The notes below the pieces were generated by a model, which was given only the letters and a program-made list of their open reading frames with translations, was not told where the DNA came from and did no database searches. DNA of 64,000 nt from Metaphire vulgaris (lineage: Eukaryota; Annelida; Clitellata; Crassiclitellata; Megascolecidae): contig CM030833.1 in assembly GCA_018105865.1 (NCBI GenBank), positions 16,441,381 to 16,505,380 of the forward strand, given 5' to 3'. Numbering within the stretch: position 1 is the first letter of the stretch; every line of letters starts with the position of its first letter. Positions 3,073 through 57,050 of the stretch are shown here, piece by piece. The translations under genes and the position numbers were made by a program.

Positions 3073-3664
3073 AGCCGCCCCAGCTATTACCGCCCCAGTT
3101 ATGACCGCTAAAGTTATGACCACCCCGGTTATGACCGCCCCAGCTATGACTGCCCTGGTTATGACCGCACCAGCTATGACCGCCCTGTTATGAGCGCCCC
3201 AGCTATGGCTGCCATCAGTATCGTTTAGGGTTAGTGTTTCATGTCTAGTTTATGGTGTGGGTAATGATTATATGACCCCGTACGGGTTAGGGCAGCGGTT
3301 CCCAAACTGTGGTCCGAATACCGGAGGGGGTCCGCAGAGGATCTGGCGGGGGTCCGTGAAAGCTTCCCAAAATTAGGGTTAGGGCTAATCCTAACCCTAG
3401 TTGCTTGTAACTACATTTAAGAGGTGATGACCTTTTGTTTTGCTTGTCACTATGTTAAGGAGGAGCTGACTTTTTTTTGCTTGTCACTACATTTTAGGAG
3501 CTGATGGTCCGCGAGATCAGGTGGGAACAAAATAGGGGTCCGCGATTTAAAAAGTTTGGGAACCACTGGGTTAGGGTACACTGCTTTTCGTCAAAACCCA
3601 AAGAGTAACTAGGGCGGTCATAACCGGGGCGGTCATAACTGGGGCGGTCATAGCTGGGGCGGCT
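3073..3664. mobile_element. Foldback-like element with minisatellite arms
   Basis: The left arm is a tandem array of a roughly 15-bp unit (TATGACCGCCCCAGT and variants) from 3073 to about 3205. The right arm (3611-3664) is the reverse complement of the same unit, so the termini are inverted repeats flanked by TA. Between them is a unique core that begins CAGTATCGTTTAGGG and a hAT MITE (3293-3568) inserted later. The same core sits at 38315-38389 inside a second element whose arms are built of a different unit. Confidence 0.65.
3293..3568. mobile_element. hAT MITE, 8-bp TSD GGTTAGGG
   Basis: The ends are CAGCGGTTCCCAAACT and AGTTTGGGAACCACTG, flanked by perfect 8-bp repeats at 3285-3292 and 3569-3576. 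It carries no coding capacity. The interior has two copies of the GACCTTTTTTGCTTGTCA-type motif (near 3425 and 3465). It is nested in the foldback-like element. Confidence 0.9.
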
Positions 3665-3828
3665 ACCACCTGTAACCGAATATTTCTGTTCACTGCTTCG
3701 CCGATCGTCAAATGTCAAATAGACTGATGCTAACTGCAATACTACAATTGGCGCTAACGAAGTTCATGAATGATTGCGCTAAATAAATAAATACAATGAT
3801 TATAATAACAACACAAAGATAAGTCAGG

Positions 3829-3851
3829 GTTAGGGTTAGGGTTAGGGTTAG
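3829..3851. repeat. Short interstitial TTAGGG run
   Basis: Four tandem copies of the metazoan telomere hexamer, too few for a telomere. It probably reflects an internal telomere-like tract. Confidence 0.8.
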
Positions 3852-4569
3852 GTGCTGTGTAAACGAAGTAGATCTGATTTGATGGGTCATTCTCACCACT
3901 TCCCTGACTCATGACAATCGTCGAGGCGCTTAGACTCCTTCAGTTTCCTGCGAAAAATTACTGTGATTACTGATTAGCCGACAACAAAGACAACGACGGT
4001 GCACGAGAAATTCCTAGTTTTCCGTCGAAATTCCCCTTTTCCCAAGCGAAAACACAATGTCCACCATAGATTTATTATAATATGATATTAAAGTCTATGA
4101 TGTCCACGGCACACTCCGAGTTGTAAAAATCTAGTAGATCATCTTCTAATAAAAGTTCAGAAGATACAGGGACAGAGCAAAATAATATTCCAAATGTAAA
4201 AATAGAAACATTTTAAAAATTACAGTGTACTTGCTATTTGTCTCTTTCAGGCTGAAAGTTTTGCGCAGTTACTGAAACTTTTTGACAACTTTTTCAATGT
4301 GCGACTGTAAGTTTGGAGGGTCACACCGTCACAGCCACATATTACATTTTCAGTAATTTCAACCCTCAAATTTATGTCTACCTATTTTTTCCGAAGCAAA
4401 AATTTACAGCGACTTTTAAGTATAACAGCATTAAGATAATTTTTAATAGGCGCATAAACGAAATTCGTAAACGATTGAAGCAAAATCCAGTAGAATCGAG
4501 TTGATTATCTGGAAATCAGGGAGAATTTAATCTAAGCGAAACTTGGTTGTCAAAATTAGGCGGTGGAGG

Positions 4570-4869
4570 TAGGGTTGCAACTTGCCAGTCTGCCAGATAT
4601 CCAAAGTCGAAATACGGGAGTTTGTTTCCGCGATCAATGCGCCCACTTCACGGTCCAGTTCATGAGTTCATTGTGAATTATTATGGCTAGACCCGCTAGA
4701 GCTATACTCCACTACAGTATAGAGTATAGACTAGGAAAAAGCGATAAACAACACTGTTCAATGCACTGCATCATCTGCGTGTAGTGAATCAATATTACAA
4801 ACAAGGAGGCGGGAGACTGGGGCTGAAATACGGGAGTTCCCGTAAAATACGGGAGATCTGGCAACCCTA
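4570..4869. mobile_element. hAT-type MITE, TSD GGTGGAGG
   Basis: The ends TAGGGTTGCAACTTGCC and GATCTGGCAACCCTA are inverted repeats, flanked on both sides by GGTGGAGG (4562-4569, 4870-4877). The interior repeats AAATACGGGAG. It has no open frame of note. Confidence 0.85.
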
Positions 4870-5045
4870 GGTGGAGGGGAGCACGCCCCACGATCAGAGC
4901 AAATGATCGGAGAACGAGTGAAACAACTGACATGTTGAATACTCCAGAAGGACTAGAACTCGCATTTTAATACTCTAGTTCATCGCTCCACTCTATCACC
5001 AAGTCTCTCCGTTTTCCACGTCCGCCTGCCTACTCTAGTAAGTAA

Positions 5046-5871: not shown

Positions 5872-6145
5872 CAGAGACGTCATTTCACTGTTTTTCAGGG
5901 GAGGGAAACACTTTCGACTTGACAAGTTACAAGTTTGCGAAAAAGCTGACGACCTTTTTTTTTGCTTGTCAGCCAATTTTCACGGTTAGTTAAAGTACTT
6001 ACTTCAAATTACTCGACATCATCAAGCACTCCTTTAGGGCGTGTAAAATCTAAATAGCAAATAACACAAACATTGGCAACAAAAATTTTCCCCCTCAAAA
6101 TCAGGGGGGCAAATGCCCCCCCTGCCCCCCCAAATGACGTCCCTG
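5872..6145. mobile_element. hAT MITE, TSD GGTCAAGG
   Basis: The ends CAGAGACGTCATTT and AAATGACGTCCCTG form inverted repeats, with perfect 8-bp duplications at 5864-5871 and 6146-6153. One copy of the GACGACC(T)nGCTTGTCAG motif lies inside. Confidence 0.9.
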
Positions 6146-6502: not shown

Positions 6503-6827
6503 CAGTGGCGTAGCCAGGATTTCCGGAATGGGGTTTAGGTTTTTGGTTTCGATCGTGATCAAACTTTGAACAAATCTTGGACAAGCAAAAAACTCCTCTA
6601 ATTTTTTTAGAAGCTGACAAGCAAAAAAGTAGTCACCTTCCTGACTTCTTTGCAATCTTTCTATTTTCTGTTGCACTTAGAAATTTTTTCGGTCGACAGT
6701 CAGCCAAAAGGGTTTGACTCCCAAAGTCGCGTCCGAAAATGAAAAATGTATGGAAAAGCATGTAACAAAATTTTTCGTCGGCACCCAAGAGGGCTTAACT
6801 CCCCAAACCCCCTTGGCTACGACACTG
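6503..6827. mobile_element. hAT MITE, CAGTGGCGTAGCCAGG type
   Basis: The ends are CAGTGGCGTAGCCAGG and CCTTGGCTACGACACTG. The flanks TGGATGCC and CGGATGCC match in 7 of 8 bases. Two minus-oriented copies of the GACAAGCAAAAAA motif lie inside. Confidence 0.85.
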
Positions 6828-7217: not shown

Positions 7218-7424
7218 CAGTGGCGTCGAGAGGGGTACGGGGGGTGCGGACCGCACCGGGTGACACCATCTAGGGGGGTGACACCAAAGAAGGATGACCT
7301 CTTTTTTGCTTGTCACGGTATTTGAGAAGGGAAAATAATAAAGATTTAGAATAGGCCCCAAGTCTAAATGGGTGACACCACGATTTTACCGCACTGGGTG
7401 ACACCAACCCTAGCGACGCCACTG
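7218..7424. mobile_element. hAT MITE, TSD ATTATACA
   Basis: The ends CAGTGGCGTCGAGAGG and CCCTAGCGACGCCACTG are flanked by perfect ATTATACA repeats. The interior repeats GGGTGACACCA and carries one GATGACCTC(T)nGCTTGTCAC motif. Confidence 0.9.
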
Positions 7425-7528
7425 ATTATACATCATGAGATTCATGACTCTAGGGAGTCTAGGACGATGAACAGACTATGTCCATATACTGTAGCAGCTA
7501 TGGCTCTGTCGTCCTCTGGAGATTCTGG

Positions 7529-7811
7529 CAGGGATATCTTACACACACCCCTAACACCTCCCAACACATTCCTCCCAATTTGAGGTCGACACCCCCTCAA
7601 GCTTTGGTAATGTGACAATGGTATGCATACAAATTGCATATTAATTAGCCCTGAACGCCCCCAAATGGAAAAAGACACCCCCAACTTTTATCCTCGGATG
7701 ACCCTTTTTTGCTTGTCAGACTTTTTCGGTAGAGACTTCCAAACTCCGACACCCCCCCCCCTCCCCGATTTTCCTGACACCCCCAAATTCACAATCCTAG
7801 AAACAACCCTG
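7529..7811. mobile_element. hAT MITE, TSD GATTCTGG
   Basis: The ends CAGGGATATCTTACAC and GAAACAACCCTG are flanked by perfect GATTCTGG repeats. The interior is rich in GACACCCCC and has one motif followed by ACTTTTTCGG. Relatives are at 8612-9050, 30572-30754 and 56405-57050. Confidence 0.9.
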
Positions 7812-8611: not shown

Positions 8612-9050
8612 CAGGGATAATTTTACTCCCCCCAACATCACCCCCCCTCCCCATTTGGGACCGACACCCCCAACCGAAGCCAGGGATGACCAACACCCCC
8701 ACAATTCGAGACCGCCACCTCCCCCCCACAAATGAGCCATGGATGACATTTTTTGCTTGTCAGCAGTGTTTATTCTAGGCCTTTCCTGGGGGGGATTGCC
8801 CCCTCAAGTTTTAAATTTCCCCAGATTTTTTTGACAATTTGGCAAGTAGTATGACCTCCCCAATGTCTGTTCCCCCAAAATTTTAAACTCCCCCAATGTC
8901 TAGGTGCATGGCTAGAATAGCCATGGCTTGTCATAATATTTTAGGTAGGGACAAGAGTAAATCGGTGGAGCCTGGATGACCTTTTTTGCCTGTCAGACTT
9001 TTTCAGCAGGGACCGACACCCCCAAATTGATAATCCTACAAATAACCCTG
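8612..9050. mobile_element. hAT MITE with a nested hAT MITE
   Basis: The ends CAGGGATAATTTTACT and ACAAATAACCCTG are flanked by CCGGCAAC and CTGGCAAC (7 of 8). It contains motif copies near 8742 and 8975. The first is interrupted by the element at 8763-8925. Confidence 0.8.
8763..8925. mobile_element. hAT MITE nested in a motif copy, TSD GCTTGTCA
   Basis: The element runs from GCAGTGTTTATTCTAGG to CTAGAATAGCCATG. Its 8-bp duplication, GCTTGTCA, is the end of the dispersed motif itself, so this insertion landed inside a motif copy of the host MITE. Related ends occur near 5705, 12818 and 19719. Confidence 0.75.
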
Positions 9051-9475: not shown

Positions 9476-9828
9476 CAGTACAGTGGCTATAACAGTGGCT
9501 ATAGTTGCAGGGGTTTAAACCTCCCCCTTGGACTAGGACAGATTTTGTTGGCACGGACAAATTTTTTATGTGTTCTGTGCATTTTCTATTTTTTGAGGCG
9601 ATATTTGGGTGAAGCCTCCCCTTGGTGGTTATCGACAACCTTTTTTTGCTTGTCAGTGCATTTGAAAGGATGAAAGGAGAGACTTCGATGACCATTTTTT
9701 GCTTGTCAGCTCAAATGGAAAGGAAAAAAGTGGAGATTACCTTTTTTTGCTTGTCAAGATTTGTTGGGAGTTGGTCATGACCAAAACAAACCCCCCTTCC
9801 GGAAATCCTGGTTATGCCACTGAGGTTA
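9476..9828. mobile_element. hAT-like MITE, left end uncertain
   Basis: The right end AATCCTGGTTATGCCACTG is typical. The left end is one of two overlapping CAGTGGCTAT copies. Possible flanks AGGTTATG and AGGTTAAG match in 7 of 8. Three motif copies (near 9632, 9687, 9735) make it the densest carrier in the window. Confidence 0.6.
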
Positions 9829-13439: not shown

Positions 13440-13700
13440 CAGGGCCGCCGAGAGAATTTCCGGGCCCCGGTGCAAAAAATTGTCACGGGCCCCTGACCTG
13501 CCAAGTGTGTGAAAAAGTTGACATTTATTGCTTGTCGGTCTTTTTCAAAGCAGAATTCCGGGTCCTCGTTTCAAGTACAAGTCTGAAAAAGTGTGCCGAT
13601 GACTTATTTTGCTCGTCAGTCTTTTTATGACTTATGGCATTGATAACTTAACACCATCAGTCCGGTCCCCTAAGCAGACATTCGCCGGGGCCCTGAGCTA
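13440..13700. mobile_element. hAT-like fragment with two motif copies
   Basis: It starts CAGGGCCGCCGAGAGAATTT and carries motif copies near 13519 and 13598, each followed by CTTTTT. A possible right end, CCCTGGCTACGCCACTG, lies at about 14030, but the borders do not pair convincingly. Confidence 0.45.
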
Positions 13701-14269
13701 ATGACGAAGATGACCTTTTTCCGTTGGCAAAATCATTTTCAGGGTTCACGCTATTGTTAATACATCATCATCACCGGACCCGGGACCCTTTGAGCTCCAT
13801 ATGGGCCCCGAAACAATGTACCGGCTCACCCTCTCTACTCAGGCCTGCCCCCAATACCCGCTTGATCGCCGCTTATGACTGGCTCCGCCTCAGACCCCAT
13901 TAAGGAATCGCATCACACCCCCTCGATAGTTCAAGCTCCGTAGTGAGTAGGCTACTAGAAATGTCGGCCTTAGAATCCTAGTTTCCCAGCTTGTTCCCGC
14001 CCCGTATTCCGGAACCCTGGCTACGCCACTGTCTGGCCTAATGTCCACTGACTTCGAATCGTTGAGTCATTTGCGCGATGACCTCGATTGTTAATTAGCC
14101 TTTCTCCATCAGGTACAGTTGTCACTTGACCAGTATGACTCTCCTGACCGTCACTTCCAGGAAAACCGGGAAAGAGGAAAGATCATCATCGCCTCAACCA
14201 CGCCCCCAAAGCACAGAGCAGCCAATGGAGGACTGAGGAGTCTCGGATCCTCTCCGTTGCGTCGCCCAG

Positions 14270-16040: not shown

Positions 16041-16215
16041 CAGTGGCGGCTCCACGGGGGGGGGTGCCCTCCCTATTGAGTGCCTGGCCCCCCAGTGGCC
16101 CCTGTTGGTACCCTACACTTAATACTACATACCTAACAACAAATGGTTGCCCCCATGATTAGAAGTTGCCACCCCAACGGCCCCCCACACTTGCCAAATC
16201 ATGGAGCCGCCACTG
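16041..16215. mobile_element. hAT MITE, TSD ACCAAGGC
   Basis: The ends CAGTGGCGGCTCCACGG and CATGGAGCCGCCACTG are flanked by perfect ACCAAGGC repeats. It is the same family as 32146-32334 and 36682-36864 (shared GTTGCC/CAACAAATGGTTGCC segments, here partly inverted). Confidence 0.9.
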
Positions 16216-17200: not shown

Positions 17201-17701
17201 GAGAGGACAATAAGGATTTTAAAACTCTGAAGATAATTGTGGTTAAAACTCCAATTTATACTTTGTCGTAGAAAGATTTTAAAAGAGCGCATAATGAATA
17301 GAAATGAAAATTTAATTCAAGCGATATAGGCGCAAATAGCCAAGCTTACTTTACGAACCCTAGGCTACGAGACCATAGACTAGTTCGACCGAAGACACGA
17401 TGTATTTTGGAATGAATAATTCACGTTATTCAGAAACCTGCAAGTAGACCTATTGATTTTGATGTGACTTGGTTTCTCGACAGTTTTTGCAGCCATTAGT
17501 GCTGTTCGAAAGTTTTCATGCCCAGGTCTATTCTCCGATCTGACTGCCTGTGAAGCAAGAAATTAAATGCCCTGCAGGGCCAAAAATCTAATCGTAACAC
17601 CAATAAGAGGCCAACCATTACTTCTTACGAAATTTTACTTACTTATTATTATGTCTTGACGAATTGCGCTCGTTTCAAACCTACTACTTTCTCTCCCTTA
17701 G

Positions 17702-17823
17702 GCCTATATCAGGACGCTGAACCCACGATGAATCTCAAGACCGGGGATTGCAAATCGCTTTATGTTGGAGGCCTGGAGGATGTCACAGGCGCAGTGGAGG
17801 AGGGTCGATCAAACGAAAACTTT

Positions 17824-17856
<33 letters not shown>

Positions 17857-18593
17857 CGGTCCTCTGCCGTGGATCCGATCCGCTCGGGGCCGCCGACGTC
17901 GCCGGCGACAGAGCCTCTCGTCGGAGTCTCGCCTCCTCCTCCTCCTCCTCCTCCTCCTCCTCCTCCTGCCGCCGCCGCCGCCGACGATGGAAAGACACTG
18001 ACCTTCACTCCGGAGCAGGTGGCCTGCGTGTGCGAGGCTTTGCAGCAGCGGGGCGATGTAGAGAGACTGACGAAGTTCCTGTGGTCGCTGCCGCCCGGCG
18101 AGGTGCTCAGGAACAACGAGTCGGTGCTGAAGGCGAGAGCAGCCGTCGCCTTCAATCAGAGCAAATTCCGCGAACTGTACGCCATACTCGAGAGTCACGA
18201 GTTCGATGCCTCGAATCACGCCTTTCTCCAGCACCTGTGGTATAAGGCGCATTACATGGAAGCACAGAAGACGCGCGGTCGGCTGCTCGGTGCCGTCGAT
18301 AAGTACAGGCTTCGACGCAAGTACCCTCTGCCGAAGACGATCTGGGATGGCGAGGAGACGGTCTACTGCTTCAAGGAGAAGTCGCGTCAGGCGCTGAAAG
18401 AATGCTACAAGAAGAATTTCTACCCCACCCAGGACGAAAAGAAAGCGCTGGCGAAGAAAACCGGTCTGACCCTGACTCAGGTTAGCAACTGGTTTAAGAA
18501 CCGCCGCCAGAGGGACAGAACGTCACAGCAGCAACAGCATCACCACCACCATCATCACAGTCACCACGGCAACCACCACTTTCAGCACATCAG
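17702..18593 (+). CDS. Six4/5: SIX4/5-class homeobox transcription factor, exon with SIX domain and homeodomain
   Basis: SIX proteins are nuclear DNA-binding factors of the Pax-Six-Eya-Dach network. Translation likely starts at the ATG at 17728 (A at -3); the frame stays open back to a CTCTCCCTTAG acceptor at 17701. Low-complexity Gly (about 33-41), Pro (about 69-80) and Ala runs precede the SIX domain, from about residue 91 ([17 protein letters not shown]) to about 204. The homeodomain follows to about 264 and ends [35 protein letters not shown] and [16 protein letters not shown] mark the Six4/5 class rather than Six1/2 or Six3/6. A Gln/His-rich tail follows. The exon ends AG|GTTTAT in phase 2, which fits the acceptor at 29455/29456. 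The donor is weak after GTTT; without splicing, a stop comes within 12 codons. Confidence 0.95.
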
Positions 18594-18643
18594 GTTTATT
18601 TACATCATTTATTTTTGCTCATTATTGTAATCAACCACACATA

Positions 18644-19761: not shown

Positions 19762-20131
19762 CAGAGACGTAGTTAGGGTGTCTGGCGCCCGGGGACAAAA
19801 CATACTGATGGCGCCCCCGTAAGCTTCAGAAAAAAATTCGACTTCACAAAAATCCCTGACAAGCAAAAAGGTCGTGACTGCGCGATGTGTGTGTGTGTGT
19901 GTGAGCGTGGGTCGGCTTATACAACGATATTGCTCCTTGTCAGAGACGCCCGGGAAAATCATCCTGATGGCACCCCTCGACTTCATGAAAACCCTGAAAA
20001 GCAAAAAGGTCGTCACAACCATGTTGATGCTTCTTTTTACTTTTTTTGCTACCATAAGCCCGATTTTGGTGCCCTCCCCACCCCTCGGCGTCGGGGACAT
20101 ATGTACCCCGCCTCCTCTAGCTACGCCTCTG
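19762..20131. mobile_element. hAT MITE, GACGTAG/CTACGCC termini
   Basis: The ends CAGAGACGTAGTTAGGG and CTCTAGCTACGCCTCTG have degraded flanks (ACACGATC and ACGAGATC, 6 of 8). Two minus-oriented motif copies (near 19857 and 19994) and a short GT run lie inside. It shares body sequence with 24251-24554. Confidence 0.75.
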
Positions 20132-20444
20132 ACGAGATCTTCGACTATAGTTTCATACTGAAGCGACCATCGATTGATGCAGGTGCACTATTACGATGGC
20201 GCTAAAGAAGCCTGACGATTGATTGATTGATAATTTCGCTGCTAAAATTGAAACTAATTAAGCGTAGCGGGGCCCTTTAGACTCGAAAGTCCCTGGCCAC
20301 GACTCCCACGAGCCGTCTGGGTCACATCGATGGTTCGCCGACGGTCTTATCTATTAATTATATGAAACTGGACTCTTAGATATGCGATTCTAGTTCTAGC
20401 AACCTTCCCGCTCTCTGCATTTAAAACTTTATACGTGACTTCGT

Positions 20445-20759
20445 ACCCGGCCTACTTGGCGCTGTGCGATCGGTTCCCGTCAGAACACCGAAGTTAAGCA
20501 ACGCCGAGCGCGGTTAGTACTTGGATGGGTGACCATCCCGGATTTTAGCCGTGGTGCCGGCGGCCAACCAAGCCGTTCATCGCTTAGGCGTCGATAAATT
20601 GGTAGCAGCGTTAAGCTGCGAAGGGTAAAACATGTATCTAGAGAAAGTAATGGCAACCTACTCTAGATTAATGGCGCAAGCCACCTGCGTTGCTGCTTGC
20701 CTAGTAACCGGAGATCAGCACCGGCCCCAACGCTCGAAAATCGAGTATGGGACTACCTT
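20445..20759 (+). mobile_element. 5S-rRNA-derived SINE with 13-bp TSD
   Basis: The first 120 bp are a diverged 5S rRNA copy: GCCTAC start, CACCGAAGTTAAGCAACG, and GGTTAGTACTTGGATGGGTG (the internal pol III promoter). A non-5S body and a 3' end GAGTATGGGACTACCTTT follow. Perfect 13-bp duplications, TACGTGACTTCGT, flank it (20432-20444, 20760-20772). The 3' body matches the minus-strand SINE at 37668-37905, which has a different head. Confidence 0.88.
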
Positions 20760-23533: not shown

Positions 23534-23587
<54 letters not shown>

Positions 23588-24250
23588 TCCCCACCTACGA
23601 GTAGTTGCGCGTGTCATCGTTGGTTGCTGTTTGGTTGGTCGGAGGCTTCGGTCGGTCACAAAAGTGTCGTCAAATTTCTGTCTTGAAACAAAAGCCGAGG
23701 AAAACAGACACCAAAGAGAACGCCTCTATCACGCCATCTGACGTCCAGTACACGCATCTAGCTACGCCTGTCGAACCTGAAACAACTACAGTACAATACT
23801 TAATAGGCCTATGAATAGTGAAAATTATCATAGGTGGCTTAGTCAAATAAATTATCAGATCATAGCTTCGAAAATTATTCCGAAGGTATAAAGTTAACAT
23901 CAGAACTATCCTTGTTGAAGTTGTTGCATTATTAAATGAAGTCGGTGCAGCCAAATGGTACTGAACCAGACATGTTTAGGTAGCCAATACCGTAAATTGA
24001 GAGAAGGTTGAAACTTAAAGGCTGAAGTACCGGTATTAGCCTAGGCCCTATACGCAGTGGCGGCTCCACCGGCGGGGGGGGGGGGGCAGGGGAGCCATAG
24101 TTTAGCGACGCTTTTAAGCTAAGGATAGATTGCCGCGTAGGTTTCGTAGGTCAGAGGCCTGCAGGATGCGACGCTGACGGAAGAAATTGAACAATGAACA
24201 CTTTCCGAGAACACCAGTTTTCCCAAGCAAATTGATTTAGGCCTAGTAGA

Positions 24251-24554
24251 CAGGGGCGTAGCGAGGGTACAGTATCTGGCACCCTGGGACAATGTCTACT
24301 GTTGGCGCCCCCCACCCCTCCCGACAACACAACATCCGTCAAACTGCCGATAAGCAAAAACGTCATCACCTGCGTTCTCTCGGCGCCTCCTCAACTCTCT
24401 ACGGCGCCCCTCTCCCTGTGCTCCTGACGAGCAAAAAAGGTAGTCGCAATTGCTTCTTATTTATTTAACTAACCACCAAAACCCGATTTTGGTGTCCCCT
24501 CACCTCGGCGCCCCGGGGCATATGCTCCTCTGCCCCATCCTCGCTACGCCTCTG
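24251..24554. mobile_element. hAT MITE, TSD CTAGTAGA/CTGGTAGA
   Basis: The ends are CAGGGGCGTAGCGAGGG and CCTCGCTACGCCTCTG, with a 7-of-8 duplication. Two minus-oriented motif copies lie near 24348 and 24424. Confidence 0.85.
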
Positions 24555-24584
24555 CTGGTAGATGGTTTAAAATATTTAACTAAT

Positions 24585-24637
<53 letters not shown>

Positions 24638-24993
24638 TCCCCACCTACGAGTAGTTGCGCGTGTCATCGTTGGTTGCTGTTTGGTTGGTCGGAGGCTTCG
24701 GTCGGTCACAAAAGTGTCGTCAAATTTCTGTCTTGAAACAAAAGCCGAGGAAAACAGACACCAAAGAGAACGCCTCTATCACGCCATCTGACGTCCAGTA
24801 CACGCATCTAGCTACGCCTGTCGAACCTGAAACAACTACAGTACAATACTTAATAGGCCTATGAATAGTGAAAATTATCATAGGTGGCTTAGTCAAATAA
24901 ATTATCAGATCATAGCTTCGAAAATTATTCCGAAGGTATAAAGTTAAAATCAGAACTATCCTTGTTGAAGTTGTTGCATTTAGGCCTAGTAGA

Positions 24994-25297
24994 CAGGGGC
25001 GTAGCGAGGGTACAGTATCTGGCACCCTGGGACAATGTCTACTGTTGGCGCCCCCCACCCCTCCCGACAACACAACATCCGTCAAACTGCCGATAAGCAA
25101 AAACGTCATCACCTGCGTTCTCTCGGCGCCTCCTCAACTCTCTACGGCGCCCCTCTCCCTGTGCTCCTGACGAGCAAAAAAGGTAGTCGCAATTGCTTCT
25201 TATTTATTTAACTAACCACCAAAACCCGATTTTGGTGTCCCCTCACCTCGGCGCCCCGGGGCATATGCTCCTCTGCCCCATCCTCGCTACGCCTCTG
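24994..25297. mobile_element. Second copy of the 24251 hAT MITE, by tandem duplication
   Basis: It is identical in ends, interior and flanks to 24251-24554. It was copied as part of block B rather than by transposition, because the flanking sequence is duplicated too. Confidence 0.85.
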
Positions 25298-32334: not shown

Positions 32335-32427
32335 CTGTAGAGCCGACAGAAGCGAGTTCGAGACCCGCAAGAACTAGAGATGTGTGGTTTGGGTACAGCA
32401 AAATGCCTACCCTATCCGTACCCGCTA

Positions 32428-36638: not shown

Positions 36639-39600
36639 GTGAGTACGATAGAAGGATTTCCACTCAATTGTGGATCAAAAGCAGTGGCGGCTCCAGGATT
36701 TTGCAAGTGGGGACCGTTGGGGTGGCAACTTCTAATCATGGGGGGCAACCATTTGTTGTTAGGTATGTAGTATTAAGTATTGGGTCCCAACAGGGGGGCT
36801 ACTGGAGGGCCAGGCACTCAATAGGGGGGCACGGCCCCCCGGGGCCCCTGTGGAGCCGCCACTGATCAAAAGCTGATTTTTGTAACAGAAAGATCCATGA
36901 CTGAGACCTCAATTGGGCCTATACTATAGACATGCCACTTTGTGGTGTATTGGCGATATAAAACGGGGTCTGGAAAAATTTAACTGTTGACCTCAGTCCT
37001 TAGAGTAGTGTAGTTTGAAAAACTGACACTGATATTAAATACCGAATTCGGTTCGGTAATCAGTTTTCACCATATTTCCGTGCATGTATAACTAATCTGC
37101 ATTTACTACGAGTATGATCCGACTGATAATGTGAAACTGACTAGAAGATTTCAAATCCCAATCGATTTGATTTGTAACAGACGTCTGAAGCGTTTACTGT
37201 TACTGTTTAGCAAAAAATGTTTGTGGTATTTTAATGTAAGAATCAGAAATTGTATACTTGTAATAATATGGAATTGCTTCTCATGTTGTGCAGTGTGCAG
37301 TCACCTGCTTTACTAGTGAGTGACTAGACAGTATATATGGCCTATCTGCATGTGCATGTATCTTTGTGTGATAGCCAACCTAACTTGACTATTTGATGTT
37401 ACAGTAATTCAGCCATTTCTGTTTAGTATGACTCCAGCACCAAGATTTTTGGATTCCAGTGGGACTGTCAGACCAGTGGCATACTGGGCAACCAAATGGG
37501 GCCTGCAAATTGTTGACTTCAGGGCCCACCAGTCACAGTTGCAGCATTCCTGCTTGAGTTCATTGTTATTCTGTGGTCCAGTTATGACACATTTTATTAG
37601 ACTAACATACATTAAGTTACTAGAATAGCAAAATAGTAGTATGTATAGTGTATACATATGCAGTTTAAAAAGGTAAAGGGAGTCCCATACTTGATTCAAG
37701 CTTTGGTGCTGGTGTTGATCTCCAATTGCTCAGGCTTGTAGTGATGCAGGTGGCTTATGTCATTAATCTAGAGTAGAAAGCCAGTCAAACTTCTAGTCCT
37801 AGGTTTACCTTTGCAGTTTAATGCCACTCCTTGGCTTAACCACCGCCCTCTAGTGAGTAAGGTGGAGTTGACCTTAGGGTCTCCAGCAGGACTACCGGTA
37901 GATCTTGTTCAATCAGTGTGTCTTCAGTGTTTTACCAATCTGCTATCGGCCTCGACTGCCTGCCCCTGCAGTTTAATGGCCCATATAGTCTATTACCCTC
38001 AGGGGTCCCGGAAACTTCCTATGTTACTACTTGGCCAGTATGTTTTGGGTCAGACAGTTTAAAACCAAAATTTTTTACCCAAACTTCAAGACTCAATCAT
38101 TCAAGACCCAGACTGAGACAAAAACAGCATGGTTTAAAGTGGCTTAGGAGGCATAACTGCCTGTGTGAAAGGGTATACGGACATTCTCTCTCCTGGACAT
38201 AATCCCCCCTGGACATTATCACCCCGGACATTATCCCCCTGGACATATTTCCCCCCATAAAGAAGTACCGGTAATAGATCTTAATTTTAAAAGGTACTTA
38301 TCGGTTATCTGATGCCATGGCTGCCGTCACGTCAGTATCGTTTAGGGTTAGTGTTTAGTGTCTGGTTTATGGTGTGGGTAATGATTATAGTCAAAGTCCA
38401 TAGAGAAAACAAAGGGGGGATTATGTCCGGCTGTGTCATTTCAAAGGGTGTACCGGGTGGGGGATAATGTCCATGGGGGAGAAGTCCTACAAATCGTGTG
38501 AAAGCCACTAGGTGTGCTAACGGGGCTTGAACCCCCTCATCAGCCTGCAGCTCCAACACATAACCCACTTGACCATCTTCCACCTCTGACAAGAGACAAG
38601 ACTTTGAAGTTCAAGACCAAGACTCAGGTCTTTAGTGTGGATGTCAGCTACACTCAATGTTGAGTCACTGGCATTCCTTTGGTTCAATGTTAGTAGAAAT
38701 TATATAGGCCCTCAACAAGCTACTTAAACATTTTTCCTTATTATTATACTAATTTCAAGCTCTCAATGTCTGCTCTGCACTAATAAATAGCATCAATTAT
38801 TGGCTGCTGTACCAATAATCATCCAGTTCACAGTCAACATTTACCAATTTGCAGTCAGTAAATGTTTGTTTCTGGCTGTTTTTACATCATTGACATCATT
38901 ATTTCATTTTATTGGCATTGGACTACACCTTTGCATAAGCCTGCCATAATTCGGTGCTTAGTCATTACATTTTGCATTGAAGTGTTTGGTTCAAGAGAGG
39001 CTTATGGCTTTGTTACTGCACTTAGTTTGCCAGAAACTGTTACTTTTAGATACTCTGATATTCTAGAGTTAGGGTTATGTATAAAGACTCTGATTACGGT
39101 ATGTTATTATTAAGAGAAATGCTAACAAGGGAAAATTCAGGTTGGTGATGGTATCCATCTCAGGATACCTTTGAATAATTGGTGTGACTTATTAACCCCA
39201 TACACAAAAAGAATGCACAGTATGCCAAAATGTGTGTATATTGACACCCTATAGGTACCTAAAAGCAATTTACAATGACTCATTGCATCTTTAAATTTGG
39301 GTAAAACCAAGGGTTTGGAACCATTCTATGGCAGTTGTGAGGGTTCACAATAGTTATAGTATAATTATTAAATTGAAGAATGCACTGGTGACAACACAGA
39401 GCTTAATTGTATTCACTCTCTTCTTTGATGTCTTTATATTAGAAGTGAAAGGCAAATATAAACAGACACTTTACAGAAGAGTCTTGGAGTCTGATGCTAC
39501 AGAATATATGGCTTTCAAATTCTTCTTTCACTTTCCTATTGGACTTGTTATTGGTTATTGTAAGTAATTGTTATGCAGTGTTTCAGGGTATATTTGATAA

Positions 39601-39946: not shown

Positions 39947-42900
39947 CTAAAGAGTGGTTCTGCAGGAGAATGCTAAAAGTTCCATGGATGGATAAAAGAG
40001 CCAACAAAGAAATTTTATAGATGAAGGAAGAGGAACAAACATTGATGGCTACCATCAAGCTAAGGCAGATTAAATTTTTTGGGCACGTGATGAGGAAAGA
40101 TGGACTCGAGAACTTGGCAGTGACAGCCTGGTGGAAGGTAAAAGATCAAGAGGAAAACAAAGATCAAAATACACAGACAAGCTAAGAGATGGACTGGAGA
40201 TAGACAACTACATTGAACTTCTGAGGAACACCAGAGATCGTGAAAAGTGGAAGTCCATGGCTGCCGACGCAGCGATGCATGGTACCTGGGAAGAAGAAGG
40301 TATAATAGACGGACATGCACATTTGTCCAAACCGAAATTTGGCTTTATATAACCCGGAATTGGATATATCGAAACTCGAATATATCGAAGTATTTATCAT
40401 GGTCCCTTGAGCTTAGATATAGCGGGATTCTACTGTAACGTTGTAGATTTGAGAGATTCAATAGTTTATCAGATTTTATTTTAATTCTGATGTTATTTTT
40501 GTAGGTCTGTTCAAGATAACACTTGATCGTTTGCAATTTGCTCCAGATTTTGCTGTTCCACTTTCTTTGGTTTTCATTTTTGCTTATGCCTTCAGCTTCT
40601 CAATGTTTGTCTTATTTCGATGTGTGGCACTTTTATGTTTTCCTTATATGTTTGGAGAAATGGGTCGCATGTACATCTACTTAATAACATGCTCTTTCAT
40701 ACTTACTGGTTTGTGGCTCTTACTGAGTTCTTTATTATTGTTAGAATTAGGGGCTGCCCATTAATTATGTCACCAAAATAGGGGTGAGGATTTGAAAAAG
40801 TTTGACAGTTGTTGACAGGGGGGTAGAGGGGGTCAAGAGAGGTTGACATCAGCAATTTCACTTTTTACAAATAATCCAAAAAATAGTAATTTCATGGAAT
40901 ACTATTTATTGCAACGAAGAAAAGCCTGGCAAGCAAAAAAGTAATCATTTTGACACTTGATGAGCAAAAATGGGGGAAAAGGTCATCACTGCAGAAAAAA
41001 TAATAACCTTCTAAACTTTTTAGGGGTCCCGTCACACTGATCTTGGGGGGGGGGTCAAAAGTTGCTGACATAATTATAGGGGGTCACTGGAGGTTGACTG
41101 CTGTAGACAAGGGGAGGAGGTCAAAAATTGCCCAAAAATTGTTGACATAATTAATGGACAACATCTTATTTAGAATCATTATTGGTGAACTTCTATAGTG
41201 CCAGTTTAGTAATGCACTTGACTTCAGGCAACTGTCACTTTGGAGTTGAATCATAATCTCCTATTGTCAAATCCAATAAGGCAGTACAATTTTCCATTCT
41301 CGGTTATGGCAGATAGGCAATTGAGAACAGTCATGTTTTGAGTATTAATCAACTTGTCATTCAGTGTCTTATCCAGACTCCAGGCCTTTGGGGTGGTGGA
41401 GGAATTTGAGGCTTTCGGGGGAAAATCGACTTGGTTGGAGGGGAAAAGACACAGTTCAATGCAAAATTTGTGTAAGTGCTGGGTTTGGGGGGGATTTTGA
41501 GGTTTTTTGTAGGGGGGATCTCCCCTCCTAACAGGCTTGTATAAAACACTGTTGTGTCATTAGACTTGGTGGAGCAGACCAATGCTGTGAGAAAATTCCA
41601 TGTTCTTGGTCCATCATCATCATTTTGCTCTCTGCCAACTCTTTAGTGGCAATAGCATAGCTAGACACAAAATGTTTCCAAGAAGTTCTATTATATGTTA
41701 ATCATCTTCCATCTACAATTGAATTTCCTTTCATGTTCATATCTTCTCCGATGTTGTCCATCCACTTTTTCCTGGGTCTTCCTCTTCTTTTATTGCTTCC
41801 ATTTGAGTGTAGAATGCCTTGTATGGTAGTCTCCTTTCATCCATTCTGTTGATGTGTCCATACTAGTTGAGTCTTTTGTTTCTAATTTTGTCAATAATTG
41901 TATCCTTTAGGTTGAGATGAGCAGTTGAGACAGCAGTCTGATGTCTTTGTTTCGTATCTTTTGTAGCAGTGTTACTCCAAGGATTCTCCGTAAGCAGGTC
42001 ATTTTGACCACTAGCAGCCTATGTTCATCTGTTTCTTTCATGCTCCATGTTTCTGCACCATATATTATTTGTGGGACTACTATGATGTTGTATATCATGA
42101 CTTTTGTGTTTATGTTTATGCCCTTGCTGCTTCTTGATGTTTTGATATACCTCTTTTTGTTTTGTTTTTGTTGTGTTTCTCTTTTTGTTTTTGATTGATG
42201 TTTTGATAGATCTCTGGTGATTTTGCTTTCTTGTGTATAATTTTAAAAGAATATTACTTTTATGCTTATTTGCTGCTTCAGAATTTTCATAATCTCCCCA
42301 TCGTTTGCAATCCTTTGGCGATTTTTTGTTTAATATCCTCTTGATAATTCCCATTACTGACAATTTCTCCTCCAACATAGGTGGAATTTTCGACTTGTTC
42401 AATTGTTGTATTACCTAATGCTATTTTGATTTGAGCTCTTCCATTTCTGCTGACTGCCATGGTTTTTGTTTTCTTGGGGTTAATTGCAAGTCTGAATTTT
42501 TGCTTGTCAGATTGCCTTCATTGGTCCAGCCACTGAAAATGTGCACTTACCAAAAGTGGTTCAAGTGTACAGCATCTGCAGAGTTAATGCATCAGAAGCC
42601 ATCACGGGGGGGGGGTTCGATCAAGACTTGAAATATATCTGTTCTCTATTGCCTATCCACCATAACTGGGATTGAAAAATTGGAAGTTCTGAAGGCAGCA
42701 ATCACATTCTATGTCACTGATTAAATGAAACTGAAGCAGATGATGAAGAATAATGTGTTTATAAATATGTGAAATGTATCAATTGCTTATTAAGTATGAA
42801 ATATGTATAAAAAGAAATAACAAATGTAAAAAGCATGTTTTTTCTGAAAATGTAAAAAACATTGCGAAAAATGTTCATTTACTTTTTAGGCAACACAAAA

Positions 42901-44202: not shown

Positions 44203-47200
44203 TGTATGTGTTATATACAATTGCACTTTCATGTGTCAATCATTTGACTTCTTGAACACCATTATGATTAGGCACTTAGGGGTGAAAACTGTAGTCAGTA
44301 ACTATGTTAGTTCATGGTAGTTAATATACAGGGGATCAGTCAAAAACCGCTGATTTGAATTGTAATAATGTGGTTGTTCTGAGCCATAGCACTACACCAG
44401 TGGTTCTCAGACCATTTTGCCTTGCGGACTACTTTTGAAGGTTAAAAATTTGTCGCGGACAACCTGAAAATTGAGAAAAATCATGACAAACAAAAAAGTC
44501 ATCGCGTATGCGTGTTATCTTCGTCCCTATCCAGTGCCCCGACAAGCAAATAAGGTTGTCACCTTACTTAATTGTGCTGCTTGCTCTATGGAAAATTTAT
44601 AGGCCTACATCTCATATTTATTAACGTTTTTCAGAATTTGCTGTGGACCACTAGACCTCCTCTCGCGGACCACTTTTGGTCCGCGGACCACGGGTTGAGA
44701 ACCACTGCACTACACAGACCGTAGTAATGATCACTCAATGCTTGGAATATATAAATACCTCAGATGTTGACATCACTGACTCCCAAACCCCCAAGTCTGA
44801 ACTTGATTGGGCAGGATGGCTCTGTGCAAAGCTGCCTAACTATTGTAGTTATTTATGACCAAGGGTGGCTAACCTTTTGTTACAAGGGGGCCATTATAAA
44901 TTTTGATAAACACACGGAGGGCCGCATGTTTTTGTTGTACATTGTTTTCAACAATAGTGACAATCATTGCAGTCATGTAACCATAGTAACTGGTTAAAAG
45001 TCAAAGTCCTTCTTGGGCATCACTTGCTCATTGGGCGGTGCTGATCTCCTTTGCTAGAGCCCTCAGCCAGGCATACAATGCGATAGAGTGAATCGCGTAG
45101 CGTGCCTGTTTGACTTATCACAGCCTTTTACCACTGCTGCTCATTTCACCACTGCCCTCTAGCGATTAAGGCTGAGTCGAGCTTAGGGCTCCTGTGGGTC
45201 TCGAACCTGCAACCTTCTACTCTATCACTCAACGTTGTTACCACTCTGCTAACTTCCCGGTAACAGTTGCAATTAAGCAGCAGCTTAAAGTAAACATACT
45301 ATTTTACTAAATTAAGTATGGGATTCATGACTCAATATTGTATACATTAATAGGACCAATAAAATTTATTTAGAAAGATGCTTGTGGGCCACCAATTAGC
45401 AGCCAGCGAGCTGCATGCGGCCCACAGGTTGGCCACTCCAGTTCTGGACTATTACAATATTTCTTTGTCACTAGCTGTATTTCCACCAATGTTTGATGCA
45501 TCTTGTGTTTGGCATATACTGTATCAGCGGGGGTTCCAGGAATTGTTGGTGGGGGATGAAAAAAAATTATAGGAAGTTGGTGGGGGGATGCAAAGTGAGG
45601 AAGAAAAAAACAAAAAAGATCACTGTTAGTGTTTTGCCTAGTAAATGTTAATAAACCTTGCCAAAAAAGGCCGACAAGCAAAAAAGGTCATTTGCAGTGT
45701 TTTTCACTAATTTTTTTAAAAACTCGCCGGAAAATAGGTTGCCAAGCAAAAAAAGCTCATCTGTAACCCCGATGGGGGATACATGATCCCAGTCATCGAC
45801 ATGGTGGAACCGCCACTTTACTGTATATGTTAAATAGCAATTAAGCAAGTAATTACTACAAGTGGAAGCCACACATATTGGCAACAACAGTCAATTCATT
45901 TTTGAGAGCATTTGTACTTTACTTTCTTTTACTTTAGCACTGTTGAGATGTGAATTTGAGAAATAATGATGAACTATCAAGACTTGTTTATGAGCAGCCA
46001 AATCAATTTATTAATATCAAGATCAGTATCAAATATTGTTAATAGGCCTATTACAATTGAATATAGGAAAAATAGTTATAAAGACAGATGCAAATATATT
46101 TCATATCCTGAAATTAGATCATAATTTGATTTTAAAATTGACGTAAAAAAGAATTAGGATCCTAAAAGGAAGAAGCTGGATAAGAGAAACAATCTCTGTC
46201 TAAAACCTGCTTTCCCTATGAAGCAATATACAAGATACACATTCAAATATTCAAGGTACAAATGCAATTTTTTTAAACCCCTTAACCGGGAATTTAAATT
46301 TTAGACGTTGTTAAAGTGTTGGGAAATTATTCAAAACTGAATAATGTGAGATCCTTGGTTTGGGTGACTTTGGTTGGTTTCGAGATAGAGTCTTTCCTTA
46401 CATAAATTTTGCCTTTATAGATCCATGTAGAATGTATTTTTTTCATTCTTTGAAGGGTATGAGTTTGGAAATATAAGTCAGAGTTTTTCTTGGTAAGTCT
46501 TTCGTTGTAAAATTAGATGGTCAACAATTGGCCTTTTTCTGAAGAAGTCTGGTTTTGTGAATAACCTCATATTTTTTAGCACATGAGATGAAATTTATCA
46601 TTATTGATGATCGGATTTGACCCTCTTTTTTGTTCTTGTTTAACTTGTATACATAATTTATGTCATTTGGTGAAATTTGCATCTCAAGATCATTTTTTAA
46701 ATGATCCAGAACCAGTTCAAAAAGCTCTTTGTTCATATCCTGATGTGCTTGATTCTTTGACGCATCATTTCCTTTATCCATACTATTTCTTGTTAGACCA
46801 ACAATTTTCAAGTCATTTTTAATCAAATTTGCTTCCAAAACATCAATTCTTTCATCAACTGAAAATAGGTCATTTCTGATTGGAATTAAAGATTGGTTTG
46901 TTTTTTCTTCCACAATCTTGTCAATTGAAATCTTTAATTTTTCATTCATCTCCTCAATCAATTCGTTAAATTTCGACTCTAATTTGGAATTTACTTCACT
47001 CGTTGTTTTGTCCAGGAATTTGCTTAGGACTCTCTCATCACAGAGAGCCTCTATGTGTATGATTCTTGTAATCCAAAGTTAATGGGACAATTCTTAGCTT
47101 GGAAATATCTTCATCTAATATGTCTTCATTCATCTCTGGCATATTGTAGTCACATGTGATATTTTCAAAACGAACACGGAATTTACTTCCACTGCTACAA

Positions 47201-51419: not shown

Positions 51420-54400
51420 ACGACAATTTATATAGCACTATCTGCCTGGTGAAGGCCATAGTCAGGAGCGCTTTACAAAGACATCTTATATGAGATTTTA
51501 AATAGGTGCGTCTTAAGTTTCTGTGCAAACCTATCTTGTGTAGTAGACAGAGGACACGACAGTAGACACAATCCGAAGGAGAAGACTACCCGGTACAGTG
51601 GTTTGGACATGTGACAAGAATGGGAGAAGAAAGACTGCCTCAGAGCTCTACACTGTCATATTGAGGGAAACAGAAGTAGAGGAAGACAAGCTAAGAGATG
51701 GATAGATTATACAGACCTAAAAGAAGATGTTGGAAAACAAAATCATTTCTTGCTAAGATTAGATGTGTTCGAGTTATTATCTCACAAGTAGGCTACACCA
51801 GACCGGGTAGTGACCTAGATTATTTTGTAAGCCTATCTTTCTAAATTATTTTCCCCAAATTATTTGTAAATTCGCTACAGTTATTCTGAAAAGAAAGATT
51901 GTTACATATTTGTTGACTCATTGTCTATTTCTATGCAATATATTGACTTATGCTACTGAATTACTTTATATTTATATTAAAATTAGCATTATATTTATAT
52001 TAAAATTAGCATAATTTAAATTTAAGCAATCAGTAATTTGCTGTATGTGATCTGGTGATTCACTATAGAAATTTTGAATGTGGGAGTCAGAGGATGTTCC
52101 TTATCAATGGGAAATGCTTATAAGAAATGCATGAAAAAACTAAGTTTTTTTGGCTATCTTGTCTGTTGGCCATGCAAACTGACGTTCTTCTGCCAAGTGT
52201 TTAAAGGTTAGTTCTAGTATTGCAGCTTTGATTTGACCTTTAGGACTTGGATCTTTGGCCCGTTTCTAAGCTTAGCCATGGAGTTACAGTGGATAAGCAG
52301 TGTGATGCGGCTGATGCCAATTGATACAGCTATGACAGCCATGAAACCAGGTAGTCACACTCAGAAATGAACTCTCAATGCATTCCAAGCAACCGGAAGT
52401 TGATGACGTCACTACTTATTTAATTAACAAATTAACGTGTATCCATTGAGTTGCTAATGCAATAGCATCTATTACATGCTGCAACTGGAGTTTGCACAAT
52501 AATACAGCTATAGCAGCCATGAAACCTGGTAGTCACGCTCAGAAATGAACTCTCTTATGCATTTCAAGCAACCGGAAGTTGATGACGTCACTACTTATTT
52601 AATTAACAAATAAACAGATTAATGTGAGTCAATTGAGTTGCTAGTAATTGCTGCAGCTGCAAATTAACAGCTGTATCATCAAATGTGCTTGATGATACAG
52701 CTATGTTATTTTGTTAATTAAATAAGTAATGACGTCATCAACTTTCGGTTTCCTGGTATGAGTAGAGAGTTCATTTCTAAATGTAACTACCAAGTTTCAT
52801 AGCTGTATCATTGTGCAAACTCCAGTTGCAGCATGTAATAGATGCTATTGCATTAGCAACTCAATGGTTACACGTTAATTTGTTAATTTGATGATTAGAT
52901 AAATAATGACCTCATCAACTTTTGGTTACCTGGGATGGGTAGAGAGTTCATTTCTGAGTGTGTTTACTAAGTTTCATAGCTGCAAACTCCAGTTGCAGCA
53001 TATAATAGATGCTATGGTGTTAACTCAATGGATACACGTTAATTTGTTAATTAAATAAGTAATGATGTAACCAAGTTTGCAGACCCGAGCGCGCTCGCCG
53101 ACAGTCCTCTACTTAAGGGGTCTATGCTTCAAGGCTCTTGCACACGTCATTGGAACTCCAAAGCTAAGACTTTTTCTTTGACCTTTAGTCCACTGTCTTA
53201 GGTTTTAAAACACATGTCCTGCACACTTTATGTGGTGCCCAAGGTTTTTCATGGTCACTCAATTTAGCTCTGAAATATGCATCATATGCTTTATGCACAT
53301 ATTCAGACACATCTCTCAATCAACCAATCAATCAATCAACTTCTATAGCGCCACTATCATAAAATTGCCAATTGTAAATCCATGCTGACTGTCTTAACAA
53401 TTTTATGCCTAGTTCGTGGTTTTCACACAAACTTACTTAGCCTCTTAACCTTTTAAAAGGGGAATTAAATTTTTAAAGTCATCCCGCGTCAGGGGAATTA
53501 ATTTTTGGAAAAGGCGTTCGTATGAAAACGTGAACATATACGTTATAAACTATATTTCAGGCTATATAGAAGCTAGAAAGATGCGGTTTGCACCGTTGTT
53601 GAGAATTTTTTATTGCTCTTTCTATCCATCCGTGCCAAAAGAAAAAAGTTGGGGGTAGGGACCACTCTACACCCCAAAATCGGTCCCCTCCCCAACATTT
53701 TATTCAAATTTTGATCAAAGGTCAATAGCAAAACGTCTTCAGCGGTAAACCTCCAGATGTGAGCGATAGAGTTCTAGAGGAGTGTAATTGGAACAGAATG
53801 GTGCAAAAATTTTGAAGATCGGACCATATTTGGGGTAGTTATGGAGTTTCATACCCAAGTACCAATTGCTTGCTGAAATGACAATTACGCAAACGGATTT
53901 TCAATGTGAAAAACCGAACAACTCGGTATATTTCAGGCTATATAGAAGCTAGAAAGATGCGGTTTGCACCATTGTTGAGCATTTTTATTGGGCTTTCGAA
54001 CCATCCATGCAAAAAAAAATTTGGGGGGTAGGGTCCACTCTACACCCCAAAATCGGACCATCTAAGACAAAAAATTTTCAAAGCTCAATTAAAAAAATTT
54101 CAGCGGTGACCCCCCAACTGTGAGCGGGAAAGTTGTTGGGAGGTATATTTGGGACAGAATAGTGCAAAAATTTTGAAGATCGGACCATATTCGGCATAGT
54201 TATGGCCATTCTAGCCTCCGGCTGAAGATTTTTCCTATACATTTTCCAGCCTTGGTCAGTCTACAGTCAATATCCCTTGCATATATAGTCAGTATTATCG
54301 AAAACGGTGCTGCCGCCTATCGAATAGATGTGAACTAAATTGGTTGCCGCGTTGGATTTTTGAAAATCGTGCAGGTCCGCAGTACACAGTCGCTTATATA

Positions 54401-55780: not shown

Positions 55781-55929
55781 GTACTTTTTTATAATTTGCA
55801 TAAAAATATTGCTCTTGATCTGTTTAATTGTAACATTTGTGTGCAGTTATTTTTGAACTTTATATTTTTTCTTCACAAGTTTTTTGATTCTTACTCACAT
55901 GTCTTTGATAGGCAACTGATGAATGACAT

Positions 55930-56400
55930 CTGATGATGCGGTCACTAGACCTCTGTTATTTACTCTCTATACAACCCCTTTGGGTTCATTTCTTGATGAT
56001 CATCAAGTGCTTTATCATATTTTTGCTGATGATACTCAAATTCTCATCTTTTCTGGTCACTCCTCTTCAAACTCATCCCTTGAGACTTTATCCAGTGCCT
56101 TCACTAATATTCAGTCATGGGATAGATTCAAATATACTTCTTCTAAATTTGGCATAAGCCGAGTTCTTGCTATTAGGTACTCCAGCTCAATTAACCAAAT
56201 TTGAATATCTGAAATCTGTAGTACTAGGAGATTCCACTGTTGTCCCTAGAAGTACCGGTACCTCTACTCGTAACCTTGGTGTGACATTTAACTCTTCCCT
56301 CTCTTTCACTAGTCACATAAATTCAGTCCGCAAAAGTTCTCATTATCATATTTGGGACATCTATCGCATCAGACCCAAGCCTGTTCTTATTCATTTAGCC
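55930..56400 (+). pseudogene. LINE reverse transcriptase fragment (CR1/L2-like)
   Basis: Mixed frames give TRPLLFTLYTTPLGS, YHIFADDTQILIFSG (intact FADD) and STRNLGVTFNSSLSFTSHIN. It is 5' and 3' truncated and frameshifted. Confidence 0.8.
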
Positions 56401-56404
56401 AATG

Positions 56405-57050
56405 CAATTTGAGGTCAACACCCCCCAAATTTGGTAATGCGACAATGGTAGGTATACAAAATGCATATTATACAAAATGCATATTAATTAGGTCAGAACA
56501 ACCCCAATGGAGAAGGACACCCCAAGTTTTGTAGTCGGACTAGAGAAAAGATGCTCGCTTCGCTCGCTCTCGCTTCGCTCGCAGTGCAGGATAATACTAA
56601 TATCTATCCACATCGCGCAATGCTCGCTTCGCTTCACTCGAGGCAAGGAATATTCCAGAATGACCAATCAGAACGCTTGAAGGTAACCAATGAGAACATC
56701 ACACAGCCACCCAATCAAAACGCTCACACAGCCAAGCAATCAGAACGCTTGAACGCTTGACAGAGAAAACACAATTCGATTGCGCAACGTCGATTGCGCA
56801 ACGTCGATTTCACCGCAACGTCAACCAATGAGAACGCTTGAAGGTAACGGGGCACAGATGAAGGATTTTAATATGATAGATGACCTTTTTTGCTTGTCAG
56901 AGGTTTTCTGAGACTTTTTAAGGTTTTTCGGTTGGGTTTTGGACCTGATGAGTTTTTTTGCTTGTCAGCCTTTTTTGGGCAGAGACTTAAAATTTCTGAC
57001 ACCCCCAGATTGTTCCAACACCCCCAAATTCAAAATCCTAGAAATAACAC
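56405..57050. mobile_element. hAT fragment of the GACACCCCC family
   Basis: It shares AATTTGAGGTCAACACCCCC, GCGACAATGGTAGGTATACA and an AGAAATAACACTG right end with 7529-7811, and carries two motif copies (56879, 56945). The middle (56560-56860) holds CTCGCTTCGCTCGC and AATCAGAACGCTTGA repeats not seen in other copies. The left end is missing. Confidence 0.65.

Follow-up and report, generated by a model that had tools for sequence, protein, structure and literature searches.

An internal sequence module common to hAT-type and other MITEs of Metaphire vulgaris

The 64-kb stretch of the Metaphire vulgaris genome analyzed here (G000:C2:16441381-16505380, contig CM030833.1 of assembly GCA_018105865.1; hereafter the window) contains miniature inverted-repeat transposable elements (MITEs) of different types that carry one internal module. 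This related module is common to at least 10 sequence groups of hAT-type MITEs and to two MITE families with other ends. Copies lie on one strand within each element and avoid the terminal ~60 bp, and the motif that defines the module is more alike between carriers than the rest of the elements. The reading favored here, to which a probability of about 0.45 is assigned, is that the module is a conserved internal part of MITEs that resembles a protein-binding site and acts as DNA, akin to that of the CMITEs of corals but crossing element types. An earlier note on the window had described the motif as shared by unrelated hAT MITEs and as having the shape of a 3' splice site. The present analysis adds its abundance across the genome, its restriction to one strand per element, the ~40-bp unit around it, its absence from element ends, and its presence in non-hAT carriers. 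All counts come from this one genome (728 Mb).

Copy number and carriers of the motif

The motif is real and very common. In the window, the 15-mer TTTTTTGCTTGTCAG has 28 copies with at most two mismatches and 38 with at most three, whereas 200 letter-shuffled patterns gave means of 0.33 and 4.24, respectively. The count of about 35 copies in the earlier note agrees with these 38, about 34 of which are above chance, and the 19-mer given there has 16 matches with at most three mismatches vs. 0.01 expected. All 14 positions that it named hold a copy (24348 only at three mismatches); those on the plus strand fall 7–11 bases before the core start because they were counted from GACC, and those on the minus strand are within 2 bases. 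Genome-wide, the 15-mer has 79,000 matches (39,917 + 39,083) with at most one mismatch, compared with 78 (38 + 40) for the reversed pattern. The motif is more densely packed in the window than in the genome as a whole, with 19 such copies in 64 kb (~0.30 vs. 0.11 per kb).

The motif was also counted in nineteen 10-kb stretches sampled at 5-Mb steps along contigs 1–3 (12,500 of the 190,000 bases are N). At two or fewer mismatches, these contain 38 copies in 11 of the 19 stretches, 13 of them in a single stretch (L036), and no match to the reversed pattern. Chance or low complexity as the source of the motif is ruled out by the shuffled and reversed-pattern controls. In the window and the 19 stretches combined (254 kb, a sample that takes in the motif-dense window itself), TTTTGCTTGTCA is the commonest non-simple 12-mer, occurring 34 times across 29 bins of 200 bp; the unrelated 12-mer that ranks next has 18 occurrences and is a MITE family terminus (CAGTGGCGGCTC). 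The exact letters of the motif (two 15-mers) have no match in the open-access literature; subscription papers and Repbase lay outside this search.

Copies of the motif are concentrated in elements of hAT type. Strict hAT frames, which require an 8-bp target site duplication (TSD) with at most one mismatch and a 14-bp terminal inverted repeat (TIR) with at most three, span 11,450 of the 254,000 bp (4.5%) and hold 18 of the 66 copies therein (p = 5e-10, with copies treated as independent). These include 12 of the 28 copies in the window. A larger set of 152 copies combines those of the window and of the 19 stretches with those at 28 of 30 motif-centered loci at the start of contig 1; the loci L002 and L011 overlap L001 and L010 and were left out of this set and of the within-family pairs described below. 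In this set, 45 of the 152 copies lie inside relaxed frames (score of at least 18), compared with 3.1% of 608 control positions, so that the enrichment inside hAT frames for which the earlier note had proposed a check is present. The framed carriers have the 8-bp TSDs and the TIRs starting with CAG of hAT-type MITEs. A generic TIR finder with 18-bp arms was too blunt to show a clear difference (7 of 53 motif copies vs. 13 of 159 control positions).

The carriers are not one family. When the motif is masked, the 29 framed elements separate into 10 groups; any 40-bp alignment sufficed as a link, and some groups therefore mix different TIRs. With the motif unmasked, 26 of the 29 join. The idea that all carriers belong to one family is therefore rejected, and the view that the motif is more conserved than its elements is borne out. 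The differing termini on which that view had been based (CAGTGGCGTAGCC, CAGTGGTTCTCA, and CAGCGGTTCCC, together with CAGGGATATC and CAGGCACGTC, the last two by eye) are present.

In addition, the motif occurs within MITEs that have other ends (GGGGYYGTCCAT... or GGGG) and 3-bp flank repeats. Among the 10 aligned copies of the GGGGCTGTCCATTAATTA family, four have the core with at most two mismatches. At locus L022 (1374–1778), an exact core lies inside an element with TAA on both flanks and a long inverted end GGGGTCGTCCATAAATTACGTCACGC (ends by eye). Flanks were read by eye at 12 places, which have TAA at three (L022, L043, and L049), TTA at one (L004, 2045–2472), CTA at two (L030 and L048), ACA at one (L021), and no clean repeat at five. 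Among the places with clean flanks, L022, L004, and L021 have a core and L030, L043, and L049 have none. TSDs of the form TWA are given as a mark of PIF/Harbinger elements in the part of the literature consulted (PMC4482050). From their ends and flanks only, the two non-hAT MITE families are tentatively classified as PIF/Harbinger-like; that carriers with 3-bp flank repeats are not hAT frames is firmer than this label. These carriers reject the motif as a hAT-only feature, and its description as an item of hAT MITEs, correct as to where copies are concentrated, was too narrow.

Shape and placement of the unit

The core is TTTTTTGCTTGTCA, often followed by G, and is 14–15 bp long with sharp edges. 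The full unit of ~40 bp is roughly GAYGACC-T6-GCTTGTCAG-nnTTTTT, in which the T-run shown as T6 is 4–14 bases long, mostly 6–7 (148 copies). The upstream GAYGACC and the downstream T-run are weak preferences only; accordingly, the GAT before and CTTTTT after the motif in the earlier description hold as such preferences. GGAGA..TGATAACG often leads into the later copies of a row, and GATAACG precedes eight of 50 later copies vs. none of 102 first copies. Spacers of the GGAGA..TGATAACG type are found in carriers with CAGGGATA, CAGGCCC, CAGTGGCGTAGCC, and CAGTGGCGTAAC ends, and the spacer GGAGA..GATAACG recurs across carriers with different TIRs. Because spacers are recognizable across differing ends, the shared item is the ~40-bp unit with a firmer core.

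The unit is present in one to four direct copies, on one strand per element. In the 152-copy set, all 50 pairs of neighbors up to 150 bp apart are on the same strand, whereas neighbors 150–1000 bp apart comprise 20 pairs on the same strand and eight on opposite strands. The spacing between neighboring copies is 32–138 bp, with 18 of the 50 at 36–41 bp. In the 29 hAT-framed elements (two of which, at 24251 and 24994, are halves of one window duplication, so that one element is counted twice), the 45 copies come no closer than 80 bp to the upstream end and 61 bp to the downstream one. None of these copies is less than 61 bp from an element end, vs. 19.8 expected under uniform placement. Subterminal repeats of hAT elements, which lie in the terminal region near both ends, have a different placement.

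Among the possible roles listed in the earlier note is a splice acceptor that exonises or protects insertions, given the layout of a compact 3' splice site (a branch-point-like TGAC, a pyrimidine tract, and CAG). The layout is similar, and the restriction to one strand per element would suit it. A working acceptor cannot lose the G of its AG. Copies found by TTTTTTGCTTG alone continue with T in 47 of 50 cases, C in 48, A in 43, and G in 29; the G, found here without being used in the search, is the least conserved base of the core rather than an invariant one. Among the 79,000 genomic copies, 17,927 deviate solely at this last G, and the other 61,073 comprise the exact copies and changes spread over 14 positions, for an average of at most 4,362 changes per position. 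Moreover, what would be the pyrimidine tract contains G bases that are conserved at 92–94% (in copies chosen by the core). Because the G is lost more readily than the average core base, the splice-acceptor reading fails this test and is considered extremely improbable.

Elements and other features of the window

Carriers of hAT type with both ends and a TSD in the window include the following. On the plus strand, the MITE at 3293–3568 has the TSD GGTTAGGG, the TIR CAGCGGTTCCCAAACT, the terminus CAGCGGTTCCC, and cores at 3436 and 3473; that at 5872–6145 has the TSD GGTCAAGG, the TIR CAGAGACGTCATTT, and a core at 5958; that at 7218–7424 has the TSD ATTATACA, the TIR CAGTGGCGTCGAGAGG, and a core at 7302; and that at 8612–9050, of the CAGGGATA family, has a TSD with one mismatch and cores at 8749 and 8982. 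On the minus strand, the MITE at 6503–6827 has a TSD with one mismatch, the TIR CAGTGGCGTAGCCAGG, the terminus CAGTGGCGTAGCC, and cores at 6578 and 6614; that at 24251–24554 has the TIR CAGAGGCGTAGCGAGG, a TSD with one mismatch, and cores at 24347 (three mismatches) and 24424; and that at 44398–44707 has the TSD CACTACAC, the TIR CAGTGGTTCTCA, and cores at 44483 and 44539. The element at 24994–25297 (minus strand; cores at 25090 and 25167) is a second copy of that at 24251, in a tandem duplication whose halves match fully over the 300 bp compared. Recent tandem duplications in the region 23534–25277 comprise two pairs of stretches, 300 bp long and 100% identical, at spacings of 743 and 1050 bp, and one of these pairs contains the motif-bearing MITE.

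Most remaining copies in the window also lie between CAG...CTG-type ends recognized by eye, the exceptions being those at 40926, 42496, and 45671/45739. Carriers framed in this way include, on the plus strand, a hAT-type MITE at 7529–7811 with ends CAGGGATATC and CAGGGTTGTTTC, the TSD GATTCTGG on both sides, and a core at 7705; a degraded CAGTGGC... hAT-type MITE at 9481–9822 with no TSD seen and cores at 9642, 9695, and 9743; and a CAGGGCCGCCGAGAG-type hAT MITE at 13440–13847 with approximate ends and cores at 13524 and 13605. On the minus strand, the hAT-type MITE CAGAGACGTAGTTAG...CTAGCTACGCCTCT at 19762–20130 has approximate ends and cores at 19856 and 19994, and the hAT-type MITE CAGGCACGTCGG...GGGCCTG at 27960–28197, with the terminus CAGGCACGTC, has flanks that are alike at 6 of 8 bases and cores at 28031 and 28070. 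Two cores at 45671 and 45739 (45671–45753, minus strand) belong to an element whose ends are not framed, and an interrupted CAGGGATA-family element at 56402–57052 (plus strand; left end not framed) has cores at 56886 and 56954. The copy at 40926 (minus strand) lies in the PIF/Harbinger-like, non-hAT MITE of ~420 bp at 40748–41168, which has the left end GGGGCTGCCCATTAATTA and a decayed right end; a sister copy of this family at 32426–32824 (minus strand) has a slot 4 bases shorter, without the core (GATGACCTTTTTGCCATGC). The copy at 42496 has no MITE ends visible around it and may be due to chance.

Several other features were observed. The common ~185-bp hAT MITE CAGTGGCGGCTCCA, found in the window at 16041–16215, 32146–32334, and 36682–36864, is motif-free in the frames found. 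Outside the window, three cores with at most two mismatches and a weaker fourth unit lie at 7500–7780 of the sampled stretch L036, with no evident MITE ends; by eye, this region resembles a broken coding region and might show the entry of the unit into new sequence. A 5S rRNA-like match (Rfam RF00001, 42.8 bits) is located at 20443–20565 (plus strand) of the window, a few hundred bases past a motif-bearing MITE. A nest of long inverted repeats (one of 100 nt with 94% complementarity, and others) occupies 52335–53077. Among the four window frames tested, the sole Pfam match is an exon of a SIX1/2-type homeobox gene (SIX1_SD and homeodomain) at 17554–18630 (plus strand); its closest named SIX matches are varied, with many from molluscs. 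A 270-aa open frame at 58474–59286 (minus strand), which is similar by eye to the tail of a reverse transcriptase, has no Pfam match at 1e-3.

Possible explanations and comparison with known systems

One explanation for the shared unit is that it is bound by one clade of hAT transposases and kept by all families that the clade mobilizes, with the PIF/Harbinger-like carriers being secondary captures. Many carriers share related tips of the form CAGNGNCG......GG, and repeated subterminal sites are used by hAT transposases according to the portions of the literature considered (PMC10368747). Intact transposase frames are also numerous: the genome has at least 150 matches to the hAT dimerization domain (150 of 3,124 candidates scored) and at least 113 to DUF4371 (150 of 178 candidates scored), many of both in long open frames. 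Against this explanation, the motif occurs in elements whose ends are of another kind and whose flank repeats are 3 bp long, the terminal 61 bp are free of copies in all 29 framed elements, and the 14-bp core exceeds the few-base sites described for Hermes in that literature (PMC10368747). Two loci of autonomous type were read, neither of which bears carrier-type TIRs. The element at L171 (825–3420) is a complete autonomous hAT of the DUF4371 type, with a perfect 8-bp TSD GTTATATA on both sides, the TIR CAGGGTTGCCAAC, and an intact open frame of 696 aa with the DUF4371 and hAT dimerization domains; it has no core at two or fewer mismatches, although its TIR matches no carrier. The BED-type hAT gene at L170, which lacks clear ends, contains no core, the sole match with at most two mismatches (5201) being outside the gene. 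The proposal of a subterminal site belonging to a single hAT master is disfavored by the non-hAT carriers, the free ends, and L171 and is regarded as unlikely. The 3' end of L171 bears a likeness to the unit spacer (TTTTTGGAGAGTT) that scored 26, vs. a 95th percentile of 23 and a maximum of 29 among shuffles, and that was not used.

Neutral shuffling is a serious and live rival, albeit one thought somewhat unlikely. In this case, the ~40-bp unit would have been passed from one MITE family to another through gene conversion or template switching, e.g., when gap repair following an excision is interrupted, with microhomology provided by T-runs and by sheer copy number and with no function needed. 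Such exchange, rather than selection, could account for the spacer that is recognizable across families. Copies sit between the ends needed for transposition, direct copies at ~40 bp resemble local tandem duplication, the core is absent from six of the 10 aligned PIF/Harbinger-like copies, and motif and flanks decay nearly alike within families. However, between families the core aligns and the rest does not, and neighboring copies invariably hold one strand. A further possibility, considered unlikely, is that one host-protein binding unit has been taken up and kept by non-autonomous DNA transposons of two superfamilies, serving as a "passport" at the level of chromatin or mobilization with any transposase.

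The favored reading, a conserved module acting as DNA, would involve the following steps. The unit would form an array of sites for a putative binding protein, which would more likely come from the host than be a transposase. It may have helped source elements multiply or persist, e.g., by opening chromatin, blocking silencing, or aiding synapsis, and would have been kept while the termini diversified, with inserted copies afterwards decaying much like the rest of the element. In within-family pairs, the motif differs by 16.0% and the flanks by 20.3% (107 pairs, for which both flanks and not the motif served for matching; they are not independent and include coreless copies and some misaligned ones), suggesting that inserted copies are hardly protected and that any constraint acts on source elements. 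Earlier versions of this comparison were discarded, as copies chosen by the motif were biased, alignments masked with N broke at the mask, and one-sided flank matching mixed in unrelated matches.

Several observations weigh against the favored reading, including the mixed composition of these pairs and the possible exchange of spacers. Among the 37 strict frames (38 rows minus one joining two copies), the motif is present in 13 and absent from 24, some of which may be chance frames, and the common hAT MITEs with CAGTGGCGGCTCCA lack it. In six of the 10 aligned PIF/Harbinger-like copies, the slot is 4 bases shorter and the core is missing, indicating that this family multiplied without the core. 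Compared with the coreless window copy at 32426, the full-length coreless copies are 79–82% alike and the core-bearing ones 69–75%; the core may thus have been lost in a younger subfamily, if this order of events is correct. Finally, in the 144 copies aligned on TTTTGCTTGTCAG, conservation is strong between a run of about six T and the last G and slight past 25 bases on either side; these copies were picked by their core, which inflates the height of the core and not the sharpness of its edge.

MITEs are normally defined by their ends. If an internal unit has indeed outlived the ends, a factor beyond end recognition would help to decide which small transposons succeed. The tens of thousands of copies would also be a natural titration array for any binding protein, and such a protein should be easy to look for.

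Among known systems, the gypsy-type insulator is an array of direct zinc-finger sites in a mobile element. The unit described here, known from its sequence alone, likewise has a single long site repeated directly, at intervals, within mobile elements. In the sections consulted on hAT transposition, BED fingers bind subterminal repeats, with Hermes as an example (PMC10368747); these repeats resemble the present copies in being repeated sites within hAT elements, partly in one orientation, whereas the core here is at least 61 bp from the ends and is also found in non-hAT elements. The highly conserved domains of short interspersed nuclear elements (SINEs) provide another case of a conserved internal domain in otherwise different transposons, including one DNA transposon, as the V domain is borne by the MER6 MITE (PMC6887750). 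However, those domains are parts of SINEs, with conservation across animals, whereas the carriers here are DNA transposons of one genome. The nearest precedent in the material considered is the CMITE families of Acropora corals, which are described as piggyBac-like MITEs with TTAA TSDs and a 75-base internal region in an estimated ~1,600 copies; between families, this region varies less than the TIRs do, tandem arrays are described, and its origin is left unexplained in the part of the account used (PMC2872659). Unlike the CMITEs, the present carriers have 8-bp TSDs or 3-bp flank repeats instead of piggyBac ends and TTAA. As in that account, the internal region is more alike between families than the rest of the elements, and here it consists of a 14-bp core in a ~40-bp unit, with 79,000 copies at one or fewer mismatches and carriers of both hAT and PIF/Harbinger-like types.

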